IMG/VR virus record: IMGVR_UViG_3300028610_001208
Coordinates: 1-51,282 of that record
From: a virus
Length of the DNA: 51,282 nucleotides
Reading direction: 5' to 3' (one strand)
The notes below the pieces were generated by a model that saw only the letters and a list, made by a program, of their open reading frames with translations, was not told where the DNA came from and made no database searches. The position numbers and the translations under genes are program-made. The first letter of the stretch is position 1; the number at the start of each line of letters is the position of its first letter. Positions 9,610 through 23,569 of the stretch are shown piece by piece.

Positions 9610-10341
9610 TTATCGCTCGTTCCCGCTCAGCAGCTCCCATGCGCGTCGTACCACTGCTGGTACTTGTCCATTGCCAACGGCTCTAAGTCGGTCCACCCGA
9701 TGGGCCACGCCATCAGATACTCCACCGCTCTTACCGGCGGGTACAGAAAGCCGTGATTCATCCTGAACCAGTCTCGCAAATTCTGTTGATGACCACGGGT
9801 GAAGGCGCTCATGCCCGACCCCTTGCCGTCGCACGCGGTCGGCGTTGGAATAAGCGAGCCCGAACCATCGATTCCGGCGGTGGAAGGCGCCAACCTCTGC
9901 TGCTGAAACACTTTCCCATCCGATTGCACGATACCCCGTTTCGGCCAACCCTCGGAGTACGCGGGCCACGTATCCTGTTTGAACAATGGCAGGCACGTTC
10001 TCCAAGAACGTGACTGCCGGTCGTACTTCGCGAACGATTCGCAAGGTCGCTGGCCACAGGTTTCTAGGGTCTGCACCGGCAAGACGTCGGCCCCCGCAAC
10101 TGAACGGCTGGCACGGGAAGCCCGCAGTGACGACATCCACTTTTCCCCGCCAGGCGTATCCGTCAAACGTTCGCACGTCACCCCAAATCGGGAATGGATC
10201 GAGCACTCCGTCGTTCTGTCTTTGCATGAGCACTCGCCGGCAGTAGGGGTCGATCTCGACGGCGCAGACTGTTCGCCACCCGAGCAGCTTTGCCCCGAGA
10301 ATTCCGCCACCAGCGCCTGCGAACAATGCCAGCTCATTCAT
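9610..10341 (-). CDS. C5-cytosine DNA methyltransferase
   Basis: The 243-residue protein shows the conserved order of C5-MTase motifs: FAGAGGG (I, residues 7-13) followed by a Glu/Asp acidic end VEID, the catalytic GFPCQPFS (IV, Cys77), FLENV (VI, residues 112-116), a motif-VIII-like HRRNRWF, and the C-terminal LRAVGNGQVP (X). It is short because the target-recognition region between VIII and X is reduced, typical for compact phage enzymes. It would methylate cytosine in phage DNA, most likely to evade host restriction. TTG 10353 is an alternative start. A second long frame overlaps it almost completely (see 9627-10337). Confidence 0.9.
   Translation of the reverse strand: MNELALFAGAGGGILGAKLLGWRTVCAVEIDPYCRRVLMQRQNDGVLDPFPIWGDVRTFDGYAWRGKVDVVTAGFPCQPFSCGGRRLAGADPRNLWPATLRIVREVRPAVTFLENVPAIVQTGYVARVLRGLAETGYRAIGWESVSAAEVGAFHRRNRWFGLAYSNADRVRRQGVGHERLHPWSSTEFARLVQDESRLSVPAGKSGGVSDGVAHRVDRLRAVGNGQVPAVVRRAWELLSGNER
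9627..10337 (-). CDS. Overprinted reading frame within the methyltransferase gene (236 aa)
   Basis: A 236-codon frame on the same strand, shifted by one base relative to the methyltransferase and coextensive with 97 per cent of it. It does not look random. It carries SRFGVTCERLT (residues 49-59), CGQRPCESFAKYD (94-106), WPKRGIVQSDGKVF (131-144), SLIPTPTACDGKG (161-173) and EYLMAWPIGWTDLEPLA (206-222). I recognise this order of motifs from phage and prophage proteins of unknown function or loosely labelled as methylases. The GWTDLEPLAM stretch is encoded by the same bases as the methyltransferase motif VDRLRAVGNG. Its ATG overlaps the stop of a mini-frame (10334-10369) in an ATGA arrangement. 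It may be a genuine overlapping gene or a by-product of strong constraint on the first frame. Confidence 0.5.
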   Translation of the reverse strand: MSWHCSQALVAEFSGQSCSGGEQSAPSRSTPTAGECSCKDRTTECSIHSRFGVTCERLTDTPGGEKWMSSLRASRASRSVAGADVLPVQTLETCGQRPCESFAKYDRQSRSWRTCLPLFKQDTWPAYSEGWPKRGIVQSDGKVFQQQRLAPSTAGIDGSGSLIPTPTACDGKGSGMSAFTRGHQQNLRDWFRMNHGFLYPPVRAVEYLMAWPIGWTDLEPLAMDKYQQWYDAHGSC

Positions 10342-10369
10342 CCAACGTCCCAATAATCGAGTAATTCAT
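10334..10369 (-). CDS. Mini-frame upstream of the overlapping pair (11 aa)
   Basis: ATG at 10369 follows AAAAGGACGATT, a better ribosome site than either downstream start has. The 11-codon frame (MNYSIIGTLDE) ends in TGA that overlaps the ATG of the overprinted frame (ATGAGC) and closely follows the methyltransferase ATG. It could couple translation into the second frame. Its expression is an inference. Confidence 0.3.
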   Translation of the reverse strand: MNYSIIGTLDE

Positions 10370-10387
10370 AATCGTCCTTTTCGGACG

Positions 10388-11587: not shown

Positions 11588-11615
11588 ACCTCATCGCTTG
11601 GTGAGGCGTTGAACA

Positions 11616-11719
11616 GGGCGGGGCAGGACTCGAACCTGCGACCCCCCGGTCTTGCGACAGCCGCTCACGCTAAACTGCCTCACCGGTGCCAGGTGCTCTA
11701 CCAACTGAGCTACCCGCCC
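11616..11719 (-). tRNA. tRNA-like element with 39-nt anticodon loop (104 nt)
   Basis: Acceptor stem GGGCGGG/CCCGCCC, D arm GCTC-AGTTGGTA-GAGC, T arm GCAGG-TTCGAGT-CCTGC and a five-base variable loop (GGGTC) are all standard. The anticodon stem CCTGG/CCGGG pairs too, but the loop between its arms is 39 bases rather than 7, as if about 32 bases were inserted. No choice of insertion boundary restores T33. The insert itself can form a GGCAG/CTGTC stem. Candidates are a small intron, a tRNA pseudogene or a tRNA mimic. CCA not encoded. Confidence 0.65.
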
Positions 11720-15081: not shown

Positions 15082-15522
15082 ATGACGCAAACCATGACCA
15101 GCACGGGCGTTACCCTGCAGGTGACAAGCTGCTGTGTGTGTGGCACGGAGTTCGCGGTGCCTCTCGCCATGCTCAGGGCCAGACAAGAATCGGGGGGTGA
15201 TCTGTACTGCCCCAGCGGCCACTGTCTCACATGGAACGAGACGGAAGTGAAGGAGCTGCGCCGCCAGCTCGCGGGCGAGCAGCAAAAGGTCAACATGGAA
15301 CGTGAATATGTGCGTTGTGAGCGCCTACGACGCATGGCTGAACAAGAGCGCCACGAACATACGAAGCGTCGACTATCTGCCACGCAGGGCGTTGTCACCA
15401 AGACCAAGAAGCGGGTCGGCGGCGGGGCGTGCCCATGCTGTAATCGGTTCTTCCCGAAGCTGCGTAAGCACATGAAGTCGAAGCACCCCGAGTACGCTGC
15501 GGATGTCAGTCTTCCAGCGTAA
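15082..15522 (+). CDS. Coiled-coil protein with C-terminal C2H2-like zinc finger (146 aa)
   Basis: GGAG lies 6 bases before ATG 15082; the preceding ATG at 15079 is too close to it. The N-terminal zinc site combines C17/C18/C20 with C43, H47, C48. A charged helix (residues ~55-100) follows, and the C-terminus has C117-x2-C120-x9-H130-x4-H135 in the context NRFFPKLRKHMKSKHP, close to a classical C2H2 finger. This C-terminal motif is familiar from phage hypothetical proteins. Its end overlaps the end of the giant late gene (15506) by 17 bases on the other strand, so opposing transcripts must meet here. Confidence 0.75.
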   Translation: MTQTMTSTGVTLQVTSCCVCGTEFAVPLAMLRARQESGGDLYCPSGHCLTWNETEVKELRRQLAGEQQKVNMEREYVRCERLRRMAEQERHEHTKRRLSATQGVVTKTKKRVGGGACPCCNRFFPKLRKHMKSKHPEYAADVSLPA

Positions 15523-18500
15523 GCTCGTCGCCGAAGTGCTCCATGGCCTGATAGAACGTGTTGCGGCTGCGAATGAATGACGTGGTCATGCGCAGCGGGT
15601 TGCTCTTCTGGTAGATGCGGCGCCCGGAGTCGCGCCAGTCCTGTCGGTGCTTGTCGAGTAGCGCCTTCTTTCCGGTGACGCCCTTCTGCTTCCACTTCTG
15701 GAGTAGTGCGCCCTCTTTGGAGATCGTACCGGACCGCAGGTTGCGTTTCTTGCGCGTCTCACCGCGATCGAAGTGGTCCATGGCGTCCACGACGTCGGAC
15801 AGCGCCTCGTCTTGGATCTGTTCGCGCGTCGCGGTCTTCGGCGTGAACAGCATCATATCGAGAGCGATAGACCACAGCCGTGCAGAGCCCTCCAGCATGA
15901 GTCGTTGCTCGCGCTGCAACTCGGTTTCGTCCACTCGGTCGCTCGCTGCGATCTCCTGAAGCTCGCCCAGCTTGTCGTACATGCGGTCGACGATGCGCGG
16001 AGACGGTCCGGGGCGACGGTGTACGATGCGCCCGATGACCGCGGTGTTCGACCATTGCGGCTCCAGCAGGATCTCTTCGGAGCCCAGGCCCAGTAGTTCG
16101 AGCAGGTCTCTCGAGACTCCGCCGAACGTCCCCTTGATCGCGTTGTCCAGCTTCTTGGGAGACAGTCCCGTGAGTGCTCCCAGGTTGACGGAGAAGCGAG
16201 TCGTGTACTCGCTGTACTGTTCTTCCGTCGGCTTGCGGGCCAGGGCGTCGCTCACGATCGGACGGTCGGAGAAGAAGTTCTTATTCATGCCCCATTCCAT
16301 GGGCACCAACGCGACAGTGGGCAACACCTGCTGGAGCGCCGACATCATAGCGCCATTGGGCGACTCGCCGAGCAGCGCCTGCGACGTGAAGTTCACCGGG
16401 GTCATGAATCCCAGCGTCTCACCGAACCAACGCTCCATGGTCTCCGGATCCTGCCGGTACGCGAGGTTCGCGAACCGCTCCGGGATGCTGGCGAACAACT
16501 GGCCGAACTCGAAGGCACGCGGGATGCGCAGAATCTCTTTCGTGAACGGGATCTCGACGTGCCAGTACAGCGACCGTTCGTCGTCGGTGAGCTGCTTGTA
16601 CCATTCCTTGTCCCGGTTCGCCCACCACAGGGCCATGGTCGGGATCGTGAACGCCGAGATTCCTCGCATGTAAGCGCGCAGCCGTTGCTTGCGCGTGCCC
16701 GTGAACAGGCTGCGGGCGAACAGGCGGGCACCTTGGAGTGTCGCGTTGAAGAACGGCACGATCTGATTGATGGACCGCGACAAGTCCCCGGCGGCCGTGA
16801 AATCGACGGTCGCCCGCTTGCCGGCCAGGACGATTTTGACCATCTGGTCGAACGAGATCGGCGTACCCGGCTGCCAGCCGACGTCCTTGGCCACCTGAGT
16901 CATTTCCGCGACTCGAGCCGCCGTCTCGGGGAACTGGATCAGGTCGACGTAAGTCGACAGCACTTTTCCGGCAGCGTTCTTGGCTGTCCGAGGCCCGTGC
17001 TGGAGACTCCACAGGTCACGCGTCGAGAATCCCGCGATCTGACGGGTGAGCCGACGCGTGTCCGAAAGCTCCTGGCCGAGCCGCTGCATGGTGATCCGGG
17101 CGCCCAGGCTCTCGTACAGCTCCCGGACCGGTGCGGTCTTCGTCTTGAGCGGCAGTGCGCCTAGGAACCCGTCTTGCATGCCCGCCATCCAGCCGGTGAA
17201 TAGTTGGAACGCGTTTCCGTGGGCCTGGCTGTTGATGAGCAGTGTCTGGACGTCTCGGAATGTGTTGGTCACCAAGCCGAATGAAGCACGGTACGCGGTG
17301 TTTCCGAGACGTGCCCACTTGGCCGGCTTCCCCGCCCAGCGCATGAACTTGCCGGTGCCGAGTAGATTCTCGGGGGAGACGCCGCGAATGGCGTCGTAGA
17401 GTGCCGGGTCGAACTCGTAGAACTGGATCTCATTGTTGCGGTAGACGGCGACCCGCGGCCGGCCGTCCGGATCGGTCCGCGGCTGGAGCGCGGGCGAGAA
17501 GAAGGCGACCATTTCCTCGAGCAGCGCCTGATCGCCGCCCTCCTGTACCGCTGTGATCGCCTCTTCGAGCTGCTCGGCGTCCGGGCTCTTGCTGGCGGTC
17601 CGACCCAGCTCGCTCTTGACGCGCTGCAGCAGGTTGTCCAGGTCGGTCCGGAAAGCGACGGCTTGGTGGCGTGGGATCCGCTCGACGAACGCACCGAGGC
17701 CGGGGATCGTGTTGGCCATGGAGATCAGGTGCTCGACGATGAGCGCCTGCTGGGCCGACTGCACCATCTTGACCGCGTTGTTCACCGTGGTTTCGAGCGG
17801 CGCCACGATCCGCCGACTGCTCCCGCGGAGGCTCTTGATGATGTCCGCGCCGTCGATCGAGCCCTGCGTGCGGTGGTACGCGCTCGTAATCGTGTCAAGT
17901 TCCCGGGCGAGCGGCATGTAGTGGCCCGGGTCGGCCTCTCGGATACGCTGGACCATGTGCGCCATGCTCGGCGACGCCTGGGCCAGATAGTCCAGAACCC
18001 CCTCGTTCCAGCGGTAGAAGATCGAGGCGGCTCGCTTGAAATCCCGTAGCTCCGGGTCTCTGTACTTGTTCTGAAGCTCCTGCATCAGCCCGTCGACCTG
18101 CGGCATGGTCACCCCAGCGTCGCGGCCCCCGGGGTGCCTCGGCGTGGGCCGGGACAGCGCCCTTGCCCGCTGTCCGTGCAGAAAGCTCACCCAGTCGGAG
18201 AGCATATCCTGGCCCTTGATGATCGTGTTGATTGTCTCCAGGGCCTCGATCCCTGTGCGCTGGCCAACTAGGTCAGTCATCCCTTTCTTGGCCCACGCCT
18301 CGACGATCCCCTGCGAGGAGCCACGGAACGTCGACGCGATATCGAACAGGTCGGTGCCGCGGAGCCGCTTGTCGACGCCGCCGGCTCGGACGTACGCGGT
18401 GTCCATGAACTGCTGGAGCGGGACCAGCGACTCGAACCACGTCCGCTTCATCCAGGGCAGCGCCTTGTACTTGAGATCGCGAGCCGCCTTCTTGGCTTTT

Positions 18501-21500
18501 TCGGCGAGCGAACTTGGATCCACTCTCGACCGCTCGATCTGCTGACTGGCGGTCATGGCCTGCCAGCGCTCGACTAGTTTCGTGGCCCGTTCGAGCGCTT
18601 TGCGGCCCTTGGGATGCTGGCCGAGCACCGTCGTATCGAAGTAGTCGTAGAAATTGGGGGCCAGGAGCTTGGCCTCGTCCCGGTTCTCGACCCAGAGCCG
18701 CACGAACTCCGCGAACCCCTCGCGCTGGTACCCCCCAGTGGGCACCTTCTCGCCGTACAGCGCCTTGCCGAGTGCGACCAGCTCAGACTTGGCGTTAGCG
18801 TCCTTGACTGACCGGAAAAATCTCCTGTTGCTCTTGTCGACGAACGAGTTACCCCAGACCAATGCCTCCAGGGCGTGGGCGACCTCATGGGCGGCGGTCG
18901 CGAAGTCGTCGGAGTTCCGAACGCGAGTCACCTCGTAGGGACTGATGAAGTATCCGAGCACCTGGCGGCTGAAGACGCCTTTCTTGATGCGCGATACCTG
19001 TTGCATCGAGCTGCTTCGGAACGCGAGCAGCACGTCCTCCAGGGCGTGGAATATGTCGGTTACAGACGTCGTACGCAGCTTTTTGTGGTTCTCTGGTACC
19101 GGACTCGGGTCGGGTCCGCCGATCGGATTGATCGTGCTTCCGGACGCACCACTGTATGGCGGGAGCAGCGATTGGTTGATCGAACCGGTAGTCGGAGGCG
19201 ACTGGCTGGCCGGATCGTCGCCGTAGCCTTTCAGTGGCGCGTCGAACAGTCCAAGCTGGCCCGATTCTTGGTCGATCTTTCGCTGCCTGGCCCCGGCTTT
19301 GGACGCCTCAACATCCTCGCCGAACTTCAAATTTTCCTCGCCTAATTTTAACTGGCGCCCGGCAGTGCCCGCTTTCGACTCGCCCTCTTCCCGCTGGCCA
19401 AGCAGATCGGCCTCTGCCGGCGGAAGGCCCTTCGTCATTTCCTCGGTTACGGACTCCGGAACCTCGCTTTTGATGGCCTCAAGGGCGTTTCTGACGTTCT
19501 GAGCGTCTTCCGGGCGGCCCTGCTTCACTCGGGCGATCATGGCGCCCTCGTCCACGATCGTACCCAGCGACTTGGCCGCGGCCGTGATGGCCGCCGAGCT
19601 CTCGTTCGCCTTGTTGACGACCAGTGCCCGCTGGAACGCTTCGACCATTTGGGCCTGCTGCTGCTTCGTGAACCGAGGAGCCGGCGTGAACGGCACCTCG
19701 GCGGCCTCTGAGAGCCCCGGGTTCTGGGAGGCGCCAGCATCCACCCGATAGCCGCGATTGCCCAGAGGCGCCTCCTGTGACTCCGTGGGCAACCCTGAGA
19801 CGGAATCTACGACCTCGTCCAGGTGCCGGAACGGGAAGGGTCCGCGTACGTTCTCGCCGTTGGCGTCCGACAGGTATGCCTCGTACCCCTCCTGGGTCTG
19901 GAATACGTCGAATCGCTGGCCCTCCGAGTCGCTGGTAAAGACCAGCGCCTCGTTCTGCGGTCCGAACTTGTGGCGGCTCGCCTGCTCCCTGTTGAATTCG
20001 GCGATCTTCCGCGCGATACCCAAATCGACGATTCCGGACACTTCCCGGTCGGTCTTCGCCGACTGGACGAAGCTGCCGGCGTCGTAGCTGATGACGAAAT
20101 CCGGCCCCACCACCAGTTCCGGCTCACCCTCGCCGTCGACCAGTTCGATCCGATCGTCGGCGGCCGTGACGATGTACTCGATGCCGTTGAACTCGATCGA
20201 GTCGCCGACCTTGAGCTTTCCGCCCGTGATCTGCTCGTGCGCGCCGCTGTTGAGCACCTGCCAACTGAGCAGCGACGCCGCGTCCTTGGGCGTGTAGGTG
20301 CTGTACGGATTCGACTGATTGTCGTCGTAGTCGCGCCGCAACTGAGCTAGGGCTCGATTGATCTGGGCCGCGCCCGCCTTTGAGCCTTTGTCGGCGACCT
20401 CGCGTACGGCCTGAAACTCCAGAGTGTTGACGATGAACTCGTTCAGGCCTACTCCTGGCAGGATGACGTCCAGGTAGGGCTGCAACTCGTCGGCCAGGAT
20501 GTTGATCCGTCCACGATTCTCGGCCGACAGATCGCCCACCCAGCGGACCTGGTTTCTGAGGTTCTTGGGCAGATTCTCGCGGAGCGACTCGACCTCGCCA
20601 TTGCCCTCCAGCGTGTACGGGGGCAGAAACTCGTTGTGTGCGATCGGCGTCAGGTCTTCCAGGGCCTCGATCGTCCCGTCATCGAACGTATCGACCATCG
20701 ACCGCAGCTCGCCGCTGGCCGATCGGTCCTGGATCATGGCGACGAGTGCGTTTCGAAGCTCGGCCGCGCCACGCTTCGGCCCCTCCCTCGTTCGCCGGTC
20801 CGGTCGGACCTGCTCTCGGGAGACCTTGATCTGCTGACGGCTCTTCGGCCCGCCGATTTGGACCTGAAACCCGTCCTCCTCGACCGCCACTATGGTGCCC
20901 TTGACTGTCCGAGACTTAGCCGGGTCCGGGCGGACGTGGACGCGTACGCCCTCTTGGAGCGACTCGACGCCCTGTTCTCGGTCCTTCCGCTCGGCCTCCT
21001 GCTCTCGCCTGACGGTTTCGGGGATGTGCTTGCCGAGCTTGACCTGGGCCGCGTAGGTCTGCGCCGCCTCGGGATCGTACTGAGCCCAGATTTCGAATGC
21101 CTCTTGTGCCCGCTCGTTCAGCCCTGTAGCGATGTATCCGTTGACCGCATGCCTGAATCGCTTGTTCCCGTCCTCTGTGAAGTTCGGGTTGCCCGTCTCG
21201 TAGTGGGCGACCGCCGAGGCGAGCGACAGGTTCGGATAGTCCATGTGCTGGCCGTCAGAGTCGAACCAAAACGCCGCTGCGAACTTCTCATCGTTCTGAT
21301 CGACGCCCTGTAGGCCCTTGGCGATGACTCTCGGCCGCGACGTGTTGAGGGCCTGTTGTGACCGATTAAGCCCCGCCGACGGGGCTGGTGCGCGCTCGGC
21401 CTCAATCTTGGACAGCGACAACAGCCGTCGCAGGTCTTTGATGTACTGCTTGCGTGGGTCGTTATCGAACATCCGGGCGCCCGACGTGTACACCGCGGGC

Positions 21501-23569
21501 CCGAAGACTTCGCGCAGGCTTTCTTCTAGCGCCCGCACCCGATTGGTCGCCGACAGGCTCGGATTCGATTCGATCTCCTCCAGCCCAGCCAGCGTATCCT
21601 CCAGTAGCGTGCGCTGTGCGTTGGATTTCGGGTTGTAGCCGGAGTAGCCTAACTTGTCGGCCTTGTTCAGTGCCGGACCGCGCTGATTTTTGAGGATTCC
21701 GACGTGCTGCTCGACGATGTTGGCCATCCGCTGCCGGTCCATCGGGGTGATCGGATCGTTGTCGCCGGCCTTGCCGCTCTGGTGTGCGGCGGTGTGCGAC
21801 TCCGGAACGAAGCGGTAGAGATTCCTGCGGCTCGGGTTCCGCATGAACTCCATAGCCTCGACCATCCGGCCTTTCATCGCGTGCATGACGATCGGAGATG
21901 ACGTCAGTGCGGCGCGCATGGGCGAATTGCCGCCGAGCGCCACGTCGGCAAGCGACCCCGCTCCGCCCTCCTTGGCTTGGAGCAGGGCCGTGGCGTCCTT
22001 TTGGTTCACGGCGTACGCCATACCGAGCGGAACACCTTGGAACAACGCGAACGAGACGCCCATTTGCAGCGCCTCTTTGAACGTCGGGTAGTGAGGATAC
22101 AGCTCGAGCCGGTCGTCGCTCATCCACATGGCCATTTGTTTGAGCGCTGGCGCGATAAACTCCTCGGCGATCTCCGGAACCGGGCCGTTGAACAGGATCA
22201 TGTTGCGCGAGAAGTCCGCGAAGCTCATGCGGGTGCGCAGCTGCTTCTTAGTCGCCTCCTCGACGCCTCGGGCGACGGCTCCGGTTCGGGCGCCGGCCTT
22301 GCCGAGCGCCGGAACCTTCTTCGCAAGCCAGCCGATCGCTGGTTTCGAGAGTCCGCGCAGCATGAACGCCAGTGGGCGGCCGGTGTTCTCGGAGAATATC
22401 TCCAAGACCTGGCCGACGTAGTGATTGCGAAACGCCTCGTCGAATCCGACACCCGACCGAGTTGAGACCAGTTGAAACGCCCCACTCTCCTTGTCGAACC
22501 GGCCATGTACGGTCGGCAGCGAATCCTGCACTGCGCCTGCCGTGATATTAGGGATCCACACGGATGAACTGCCGACGACCCCGACGCCAATCGAGTCCGC
22601 GAGCCATGTCGCGACCTTGGCTCCGACCGAACGAGCCCTCTTGCGTGCCATTGTTTTCGCGGTGTTTTTCGAGACCTGGCCGAGCAGCATCTTCGCCGTC
22701 AACTCGCCCTGCCGCTTGGCGATCGCCTTGGCGAAAGCCTTTTTAGCGGCAACCTTTCCGCCTTTGAGGAGGGCCTGCTTTCCTGCCTGATACAGCCCCA
22801 TGCTCGCGCCGATCTCGATCGCGTAGGCCGGCAGCTCGCTCGTTAAATCGGCGATCGCCCCCGGCCATGTTCGTCCGCGAATGTCGGCGATCATTTCGTC
22901 CTGCATCGCGACGATCACAGAGAGGTCCGCGCCATTCTCTTCGCCGGCCAGGATTCGACTGTTGGCCTCGAGCATGTCGAACATGGATCCGAACGCCATC
23001 GCGTCGCGGAGGAACGGGAACACCTCTAGTTTGGCGGTCTTGTTCGTCAGAACCTCGACGACTCCTCGCTCGCCGGGAAGTTTCTCTGGGGCAGGCGCAT
23101 CGATCCCCTGCGCTGATAGTCCGGCCTCGTCGTATAGTTCTTGGAGGGCAGCGTGCCGATCTTCTGGTCGACCGGAGATGAATTCGGGATCCTGCGCGGC
23201 CATCATCCAGAGCGAGTTTTCGGTGATGCGGCGACGCAGTGCCCGCACGTCCGGATCCCCTGGTCGCTTGCCTGGAGCACCGAGGGCAAACTCGAGAGGG
23301 TCATCTTGTTTCGGAAACTCCGTTTTGGATGTCGCCTGGTAGTCCCACCAGTTCGTAATCGGACGCGACTCCAGCTTGTCGAGGGTCTCGCGCACGTTGG
23401 GGTCAAGCTGGGAGAACGGACTGAACGCCGCGGCCAGTGCGCCGCCGACGCCGCCACCCTTATCGAGCCGCTGCTGCGCGTCGAAGCGCTGAGCCATGGC
23501 GTCGAGTGAGGTTTCGACATCGGGCAGGAGTTCGTCCGTGAGCGGCGGCGGTGTGGCGAATCGCGTCAT
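15506..23569 (-). CDS. Giant internal virion / polyvalent protein with HExxH protease motif (2687 aa)
   Basis: The last and largest late gene (15.7 per cent of the genome) starts by ATGA overlap with the 649-residue gene. Features in order: hydrophobic patches around residues 230-340 and 500-530; a disordered, charged middle; H1561-E-V-A-H1565 with a downstream GFAEF (Glu ~1621), the ligand set of a gluzincin-type zinc protease; and residues ~2080-2490 resembling large-polyvalent-protein domain LPD38 (RSINQIVPFFNATLQG near the centre). Such proteins replace T7 gp16 in many podoviruses and are ejected into the cell with the DNA. Peptidoglycan or protein cleavage during entry is plausible; the protease activity is inferred from the motif only. 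Confidence 0.8.
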   Translation of the reverse strand: MTRFATPPPLTDELLPDVETSLDAMAQRFDAQQRLDKGGGVGGALAAAFSPFSQLDPNVRETLDKLESRPITNWWDYQATSKTEFPKQDDPLEFALGAPGKRPGDPDVRALRRRITENSLWMMAAQDPEFISGRPEDRHAALQELYDEAGLSAQGIDAPAPEKLPGERGVVEVLTNKTAKLEVFPFLRDAMAFGSMFDMLEANSRILAGEENGADLSVIVAMQDEMIADIRGRTWPGAIADLTSELPAYAIEIGASMGLYQAGKQALLKGGKVAAKKAFAKAIAKRQGELTAKMLLGQVSKNTAKTMARKRARSVGAKVATWLADSIGVGVVGSSSVWIPNITAGAVQDSLPTVHGRFDKESGAFQLVSTRSGVGFDEAFRNHYVGQVLEIFSENTGRPLAFMLRGLSKPAIGWLAKKVPALGKAGARTGAVARGVEEATKKQLRTRMSFADFSRNMILFNGPVPEIAEEFIAPALKQMAMWMSDDRLELYPHYPTFKEALQMGVSFALFQGVPLGMAYAVNQKDATALLQAKEGGAGSLADVALGGNSPMRAALTSSPIVMHAMKGRMVEAMEFMRNPSRRNLYRFVPESHTAAHQSGKAGDNDPITPMDRQRMANIVEQHVGILKNQRGPALNKADKLGYSGYNPKSNAQRTLLEDTLAGLEEIESNPSLSATNRVRALEESLREVFGPAVYTSGARMFDNDPRKQYIKDLRRLLSLSKIEAERAPAPSAGLNRSQQALNTSRPRVIAKGLQGVDQNDEKFAAAFWFDSDGQHMDYPNLSLASAVAHYETGNPNFTEDGNKRFRHAVNGYIATGLNERAQEAFEIWAQYDPEAAQTYAAQVKLGKHIPETVRREQEAERKDREQGVESLQEGVRVHVRPDPAKSRTVKGTIVAVEEDGFQVQIGGPKSRQQIKVSREQVRPDRRTREGPKRGAAELRNALVAMIQDRSASGELRSMVDTFDDGTIEALEDLTPIAHNEFLPPYTLEGNGEVESLRENLPKNLRNQVRWVGDLSAENRGRINILADELQPYLDVILPGVGLNEFIVNTLEFQAVREVADKGSKAGAAQINRALAQLRRDYDDNQSNPYSTYTPKDAASLLSWQVLNSGAHEQITGGKLKVGDSIEFNGIEYIVTAADDRIELVDGEGEPELVVGPDFVISYDAGSFVQSAKTDREVSGIVDLGIARKIAEFNREQASRHKFGPQNEALVFTSDSEGQRFDVFQTQEGYEAYLSDANGENVRGPFPFRHLDEVVDSVSGLPTESQEAPLGNRGYRVDAGASQNPGLSEAAEVPFTPAPRFTKQQQAQMVEAFQRALVVNKANESSAAITAAAKSLGTIVDEGAMIARVKQGRPEDAQNVRNALEAIKSEVPESVTEEMTKGLPPAEADLLGQREEGESKAGTAGRQLKLGEENLKFGEDVEASKAGARQRKIDQESGQLGLFDAPLKGYGDDPASQSPPTTGSINQSLLPPYSGASGSTINPIGGPDPSPVPENHKKLRTTSVTDIFHALEDVLLAFRSSSMQQVSRIKKGVFSRQVLGYFISPYEVTRVRNSDDFATAAHEVAHALEALVWGNSFVDKSNRRFFRSVKDANAKSELVALGKALYGEKVPTGGYQREGFAEFVRLWVENRDEAKLLAPNFYDYFDTTVLGQHPKGRKALERATKLVERWQAMTASQQIERSRVDPSSLAEKAKKAARDLKYKALPWMKRTWFESLVPLQQFMDTAYVRAGGVDKRLRGTDLFDIASTFRGSSQGIVEAWAKKGMTDLVGQRTGIEALETINTIIKGQDMLSDWVSFLHGQRARALSRPTPRHPGGRDAGVTMPQVDGLMQELQNKYRDPELRDFKRAASIFYRWNEGVLDYLAQASPSMAHMVQRIREADPGHYMPLARELDTITSAYHRTQGSIDGADIIKSLRGSSRRIVAPLETTVNNAVKMVQSAQQALIVEHLISMANTIPGLGAFVERIPRHQAVAFRTDLDNLLQRVKSELGRTASKSPDAEQLEEAITAVQEGGDQALLEEMVAFFSPALQPRTDPDGRPRVAVYRNNEIQFYEFDPALYDAIRGVSPENLLGTGKFMRWAGKPAKWARLGNTAYRASFGLVTNTFRDVQTLLINSQAHGNAFQLFTGWMAGMQDGFLGALPLKTKTAPVRELYESLGARITMQRLGQELSDTRRLTRQIAGFSTRDLWSLQHGPRTAKNAAGKVLSTYVDLIQFPETAARVAEMTQVAKDVGWQPGTPISFDQMVKIVLAGKRATVDFTAAGDLSRSINQIVPFFNATLQGARLFARSLFTGTRKQRLRAYMRGISAFTIPTMALWWANRDKEWYKQLTDDERSLYWHVEIPFTKEILRIPRAFEFGQLFASIPERFANLAYRQDPETMERWFGETLGFMTPVNFTSQALLGESPNGAMMSALQQVLPTVALVPMEWGMNKNFFSDRPIVSDALARKPTEEQYSEYTTRFSVNLGALTGLSPKKLDNAIKGTFGGVSRDLLELLGLGSEEILLEPQWSNTAVIGRIVHRRPGPSPRIVDRMYDKLGELQEIAASDRVDETELQREQRLMLEGSARLWSIALDMMLFTPKTATREQIQDEALSDVVDAMDHFDRGETRKKRNLRSGTISKEGALLQKWKQKGVTGKKALLDKHRQDWRDSGRRIYQKSNPLRMTTSFIRSRNTFYQAMEHFGDELTLED

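Follow-up and report, generated by a model that had tools for sequence, protein, structure and literature searches.

A gene nested in the +1 frame of phage C5-cytosine methyltransferase genes very probably encodes the small-domain subunit of the same enzyme

C5-cytosine methyltransferases (MTases) divided between two chains occur naturally, M.AquI and M.EcoHK31I being known cases: M.AquI carries motifs I-VIII on one chain and IX-X on the other, and M.EcoHK31I has motifs I-VIII and X on its large chain and motif IX alone on the small one (PMC3404938). There is a precedent, too, for a phage methylase gene that contains a protein in another frame, namely the hidden HNH endonuclease of the ShiLan domain (PMC11855218), although that protein is a mobile insertion, whereas the one described here reads the methylase sequence itself. 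We analysed a 51,282-nucleotide stretch of viral DNA (IMG/VR record IMGVR_UViG_3300028610_001208; hereafter the window), in which a C5-MTase chain, alpha, shares its gene with a second frame, F2. Lee, Kam and Shaw are said to have found in 1995 that the small chain of M.EcoHK31I is nested in the gene of the large chain, in another frame, and that both chains are needed. The two-chain kind of enzyme is already known; the novelty lies in the scale, in two frames that coincide over almost their whole length, in the neutral linker of alpha and in the series of gene arrangements. The family was not described in the open-licence papers on overlapping or overprinted phage methyltransferase genes, and an earlier account may exist elsewhere.

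Both genes lie on the minus strand of the window, as do all their parts given below. Alpha is a 243-aa ORF at 9610..10341 (PF00145, 1.5e-29; phrog_363, 2e-57), beginning at a conserved ATG at 10341, with an alternative TTG start at 10353 (ORF 9610-10353). It has the C5-MTase motifs I (FAGAGGG, the cofactor site, 10303..10323, recognised by sequence and by its place in the PF00145 match), IV (GFPCQPFS, with the PC of the catalytic Cys, 10099..10122), VI (ENVP, from the ENV signature, 9991..10002), VIII (the GAFHRRNRWFGLAYS region, 9847..9891) and X (VDRLRAVGNGQVP, 9658..9696). F2, at 9627..10337, encodes 236 aa in the +1 frame and overlaps alpha by 711 bp. The start overlap reads ATGAATGAG, the alpha ATG being followed by the F2 ATG 4 nt downstream, and the in-frame TGA just before the F2 ATG is created by the alpha start itself. 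This layout, a clear C5-MTase sharing about 711 bp with a second frame of 236 codons, agrees with the original prediction, which had been made from the sequence alone; the motifs it named for the second frame (SRFGVT, SWRTCLPL, SLIPTPTACDG) are all found in F2, and the bases of motif X (VDRLRAVGNG) do encode GWTDLEPLAM there. F2 has no Pfam or NCBIfam match, and a PDB sequence search with its profile returned none either; it matches PHROG 1008 at 3.5e-15, as well as phrog_35493 and phrog_26627, and the PHROG 1008 profile is matched by 69 of 71 F2 homologues.

Elsewhere in the window, a 105-nt Rfam tRNA match (53 bits) at 11615-11719(-), unreported by ARAGORN, has an anticodon loop of ~38 nt as compared with 6 in the model, and it could be an intron-bearing phage tRNA. 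A 2687-codon ORF at 15506-23569(-) has an LPD38 domain (PF18857) near its C-terminus and is a large polyvalent phage protein.

Synonymous codon shuffling of the window's MTase never produced an F2 run as long as the real one (0 of 300 shuffles), and where 5.8 F2 stops would be expected, the only one observed is the TGA that abuts the F2 start. To see how far this extends, homologues were collected with F2 itself, yielding 34 phage records and 17 viral contigs; all 32 of the F2-found loci examined had F2 in the +1 frame of a C5-MTase. Because a search based on F2 could favour open frames, a second sample of 80 loci was drawn by the MTase alone, and frame statistics were computed over a combined set of 111 MTase genes. 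In 108 of these the F2 run was 200 codons or longer. The F2 frame contained 154 stops where synonymous codon shuffling predicts 575, and most of the 154 were the TGA next to the F2 start; the third frame, by the same measure, contained 1585 against 1271. Larger scans confirmed F2 homologues in at least 434 viral contigs (one scan) and at 88 GTDB genome loci. All 160 loci fetched from these scans were nested in the +1 frame of a C5-MTase, 153 of them with no F2 stop inside the match, bringing the total by F2 homology to 192 of 192. No free-standing copy of F2 was found in viral contigs, phages or GTDB genomes, and plasmid matches to F2 are annotated mostly as MTase. The suggestion that a widespread protein family arises from overlap with the MTase, with its homologues always lying within MTase genes, is thereby borne out.

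Selection on the two frames was assessed in two ways. Between genes, F2 proteins are more alike than the MTase protein would make them (median z 5.65 in 2775 pairs, as against 2.89 for the third frame). An overlap-aware substitution count over 38 disjoint pairs, which are not fully independent phylogenetically, gave F2 a dNN/dNS of 0.53 (0.46-0.61) and a dSN/dSS of 0.18, compared with 1.42 and 0.87 for the third frame, while a simulation matched for divergence, in which the MTase alone was constrained, gave 0.89 and 0.98. Even with incomplete independence of the pairs, the gap between observation and simulation is large, and it was this kind of overlapping-gene test that had originally been proposed as a check. 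The real sequences also show far fewer substitutions that create an F2 stop than the simulated ones do (SX/SN 0.21 and 0.54, respectively). Constraint is not spread evenly: the N-terminal half of F2, which partly shadows MTase motifs, is weakly constrained (dNN/dNS 0.59-0.74) yet kept stop-free, and in the segment between motifs VIII and X (9697..9816; window MTase residues 176-215) the constraint reverses, the alpha frame being neutral (dNN/dSN 0.90-1.10) and F2 constrained (dNN/dNS 0.27-0.44). F2 is a real, selected coding frame.

What this frame encodes is indicated by relatives in which the same motifs occur in the MTase frame. In gp70 of Mycobacterium phage ShiLan and other actinophage MTases, the C-terminal motifs of F2, namely PTP repeats and ...FSEWMMGWPAGWVT, sit between motif VIII and motif X (LRIIGNGVVPQQA), and these single-chain enzymes, which match PHROG families 363 and 1008, share the motif IX block and the PTP repeats with the window pair, but need only one frame and one chain for the whole enzyme. 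Compared by profile, F2 and the single-chain enzymes gave E 9e-14. With the PTP repeats cut away, the single-chain C-terminus, in which motif IX precedes motif X, divides between the two frames: its motif IX part matches F2 (E 5.5e-10), in the window the block VEYLMAWPIGWTDL at 9684..9725, and in the nested class it is the alpha frame that its motif X part matches (E 5e-7). The bases of the two blocks are partly common to both. F2 and the nested-class alpha do not match each other in profile comparison. Alpha is without motif IX, the pattern being found in the +1 frame only and the single-chain motif IX block failing to match alpha; conversely, the window's F2 ends before any motif X.

Three things underlie the label motif IX for the F2 block: its position, the fold of a single-chain relative as modelled by AlphaFold (pTM 0.69), which agrees with M.HhaI along its length (E 1.7e-13), and a weak similarity, in register, of the single-chain and F2 C-terminus to E. 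coli Dcm (RLTPRECARLMGF, E 0.014-0.44). Modelled alone, F2 gave no usable fold (pLDDT 58, pTM 0.22), although a C-terminal helix is predicted at residues 220-233 (the AMDKYQQWYDAHG region, 9639..9680; block pLDDT about 74). Among the collected loci, 272 distinct ones had the motif IX pattern in the +1 frame alone and 17 in the MTase frame alone; two loci that seemed to have it in both frames were spurious hits, so that no locus carries it twice. Four loci had it in the +2 frame, at least two of them with a reading shifted by an indel; in the loci beyond these the pattern was unmatched, several having an F2 variant on inspection. Three loci (L366, L378 and L182) change frames partway, apparently via an indel that reflects sequencing error or a broken copy. 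Upstream of motif IX lies the PTP motif (the SLIPTPTACDG region, 9819..9860; alignment A2), the first part of the PTP stretch being the +1 reading of the alpha motif VIII region. In longer homologues it is repeated, and PTPxAxD...L...V repeats, variable in number, stand between the PTP motif and motif IX of F2 and in the single-chain relatives (alignment A2), at the position of the target-recognition domain. The second product had been taken to be a separate, unrelated protein, a part of the original prediction that was not supported: other phage MTases have, in frame, a motif IX region homologous to the C-terminal half of F2, and F2 is accordingly best taken for the half of this enzyme that alpha lacks.

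As to how F2 would be translated, its start codon is at the same place in 89 of the 111 homologues (ATG in 84, GTG in 5), and many loci have either one strong Shine-Dalgarno (SD) sequence for both starts or one of F2's own. In about 20 of the 111, the aligned first codon of the MTase is not a start, and the MTase therefore begins upstream; several of these keep the F2 start. An SD spaced for F2 is seen in L017 (GGAGG-ATTAA-GTG) and in L042 and L045 (AGGTGG-TTTAA-ATG/GTG), and in L015, L026 and Paenibacillus phage Diva the F2 start lies further inside the gene. Retention of the F2 start and SD where the alpha start has moved, together with these inner starts, favours independent initiation over programmed frameshifting. 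A 12-codon mini-ORF ending in an ATGA on the F2 start, with an SD-like AAGGAC at 10374-10379, does exist in the window (10334..10369), and the translational coupling proposed for it is plausible there, a similar 12-codon frame having been read by eye upstream in L004; it is not general, given the many loci with a strong SD.

Three gene arrangements can be distinguished. In the ShiLan type, there is a single chain. The overlapping split belongs to a group of actinophage loci whose first ORF ends shortly after motif VIII, leaving the PTP stretch, motif IX and motif X to a second ORF in the +1 frame; the start (GTG or ATG) and SD of this second ORF are buried in the motif VI region of the first ORF, the SD (TGAGAGGACTACTCAGTG and close variants) being conserved before the first start codon in nearly all of 25 loci. 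In its division of motifs, with IX and X on the second chain, this class is AquI-like. The third arrangement is the nested one of the window. In an unrooted tree of the catalytic domain, one branch separates the nested class from the others with support 100/99. The halves of a C5-MTase also occur as adjacent genes, gp54 and gp53 of Gordonia phage Upyo (L385 1248-2517), both annotated as DNA methylase. It seems an evenly balanced proposition that the frames of this large phage enzyme family divide DNA-sequence specificity and catalysis between them, so that the specificity chain would be under selection across a stretch where the catalytic chain is free, and that the single-chain, overlapping-split and nested forms preserve steps from one gene to two overlapping ones.

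Other explanations for F2 were weighed against this evidence. It might go untranslated, its openness and conservation being the shadow of a conserved MTase plus codon bias; some F2 motifs do come from MTase motifs VIII and X read in the +1 frame, and excess similarity is seen in the third frame too (z 2.89). Yet the synonymous shuffles, the MTase-only simulation and the frame-3 control all fall short of the observed signal, and F2 is constrained where the MTase frame is neutral, which makes this the least credible of the readings and a very improbable one. A somewhat better, though still unlikely, case can be made for an overprinted protein unrelated to methylation, such as a small regulatory or anti-defence protein hosted in the MTase gene: F2 is without Pfam and PDB sequence matches, and nothing outside MTase genes corresponds to its N-terminal half, but the homology of its C-terminal half to the in-frame C-terminus of single-chain MTases speaks against it, as does the lack of motif IX in alpha exactly where F2 has it.

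Programmed +1 frameshifting near motif VIII, by which F2 would add motif IX to a single chain, fits the frame geometry, and in the split class it would yield an MTase that is complete in one chain. However, F2 keeps its own start and SD even where the alpha start lies at another place, an SD-GTG is conserved in the split class, the avoidance of F2 stops reaches far upstream of any shift site, the shifted product of a nested locus would be without motif X, and in Upyo the halves are two separate adjacent genes. Frameshifting was rejected on the start and SD evidence, and we hold it to be improbable, slightly more so than an unrelated protein.

We therefore favour, with high though not full confidence, the reading of F2 as the small-domain subunit of a two-chain C5-MTase, nested in the gene of the catalytic subunit. 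The split in the window follows the boundary between the large and small domains; alpha would thus make the large domain, consisting of motifs I-VIII, a drifting linker and motif X, and F2 the small domain, with motif IX and the segment normally between VIII and IX. Synthesis of F2 would begin independently, at an ATG of its own that lies 4 nt after that of alpha. Judging by position and selection, target recognition would be expected in the VIII-IX segment of F2, which probably has this role. Translation of F2 in vivo, assembly of the two chains into one methylating enzyme and its activity, specificity and anti-restriction role are what we infer from these observations; methylation of the phage DNA would presumably protect it from host restriction.

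Of the described enzymes, M.EcoHK31I (YGGCCR) is similar in that its large chain has motifs I-VIII and X, with motif IX only on a smaller second chain, and reportedly in having that chain in another frame inside the first gene. By this likeness of motif layout, the window pair may work in the same way. The window family differs in being found in phages and prophages, in F2 spanning almost all of alpha from a start only 4 nt behind that of alpha, and in its VIII-X stretch of alpha looking neutral, whereas the large chain of M.EcoHK31I is said to keep a predicted TRD. M.AquI likewise has its catalytic and C-terminal parts on two chains, but its small chain holds motifs IX and X plus half of the variable region, where the window's F2 has IX only.

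Nested frames of this kind are already in public records. In Paenibacillus phage Diva (L114 1424-2476), g50 is annotated as 'g49 internal gene', a nested +1 ORF that matches PHROG 1008 and is an F2 homologue, although, unlike in the window, it starts 184 nt into the MTase gene; BLOOM_57 of Paenibacillus phage Bloom (L386 1406-2461), a nested +1-frame ORF inside the MTase gene, is entered as a second methyltransferase. The labels of these ORFs are only hypothetical or second MTase, and the records propose no function. More generally, public records annotate one frame or the other and rarely both, and PHROG 1008, labelled 'DNA methyltransferase', contains both F2 proteins and C-termini of MTases.

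At hundreds of phage and prophage loci, just one frame is annotated, as 'DNA methyltransferase' or 'hypothetical protein', and half an enzyme would therefore be absent from the records and from cloned constructs. The family is also an unusually strong example of a long same-strand gene overlap in double-stranded DNA phages, and since the two products would be parts of a single enzyme, what the overlap does to function would be directly testable. The one-chain, overlapping-split and nested forms offer a natural series for asking how overlapping genes arise.
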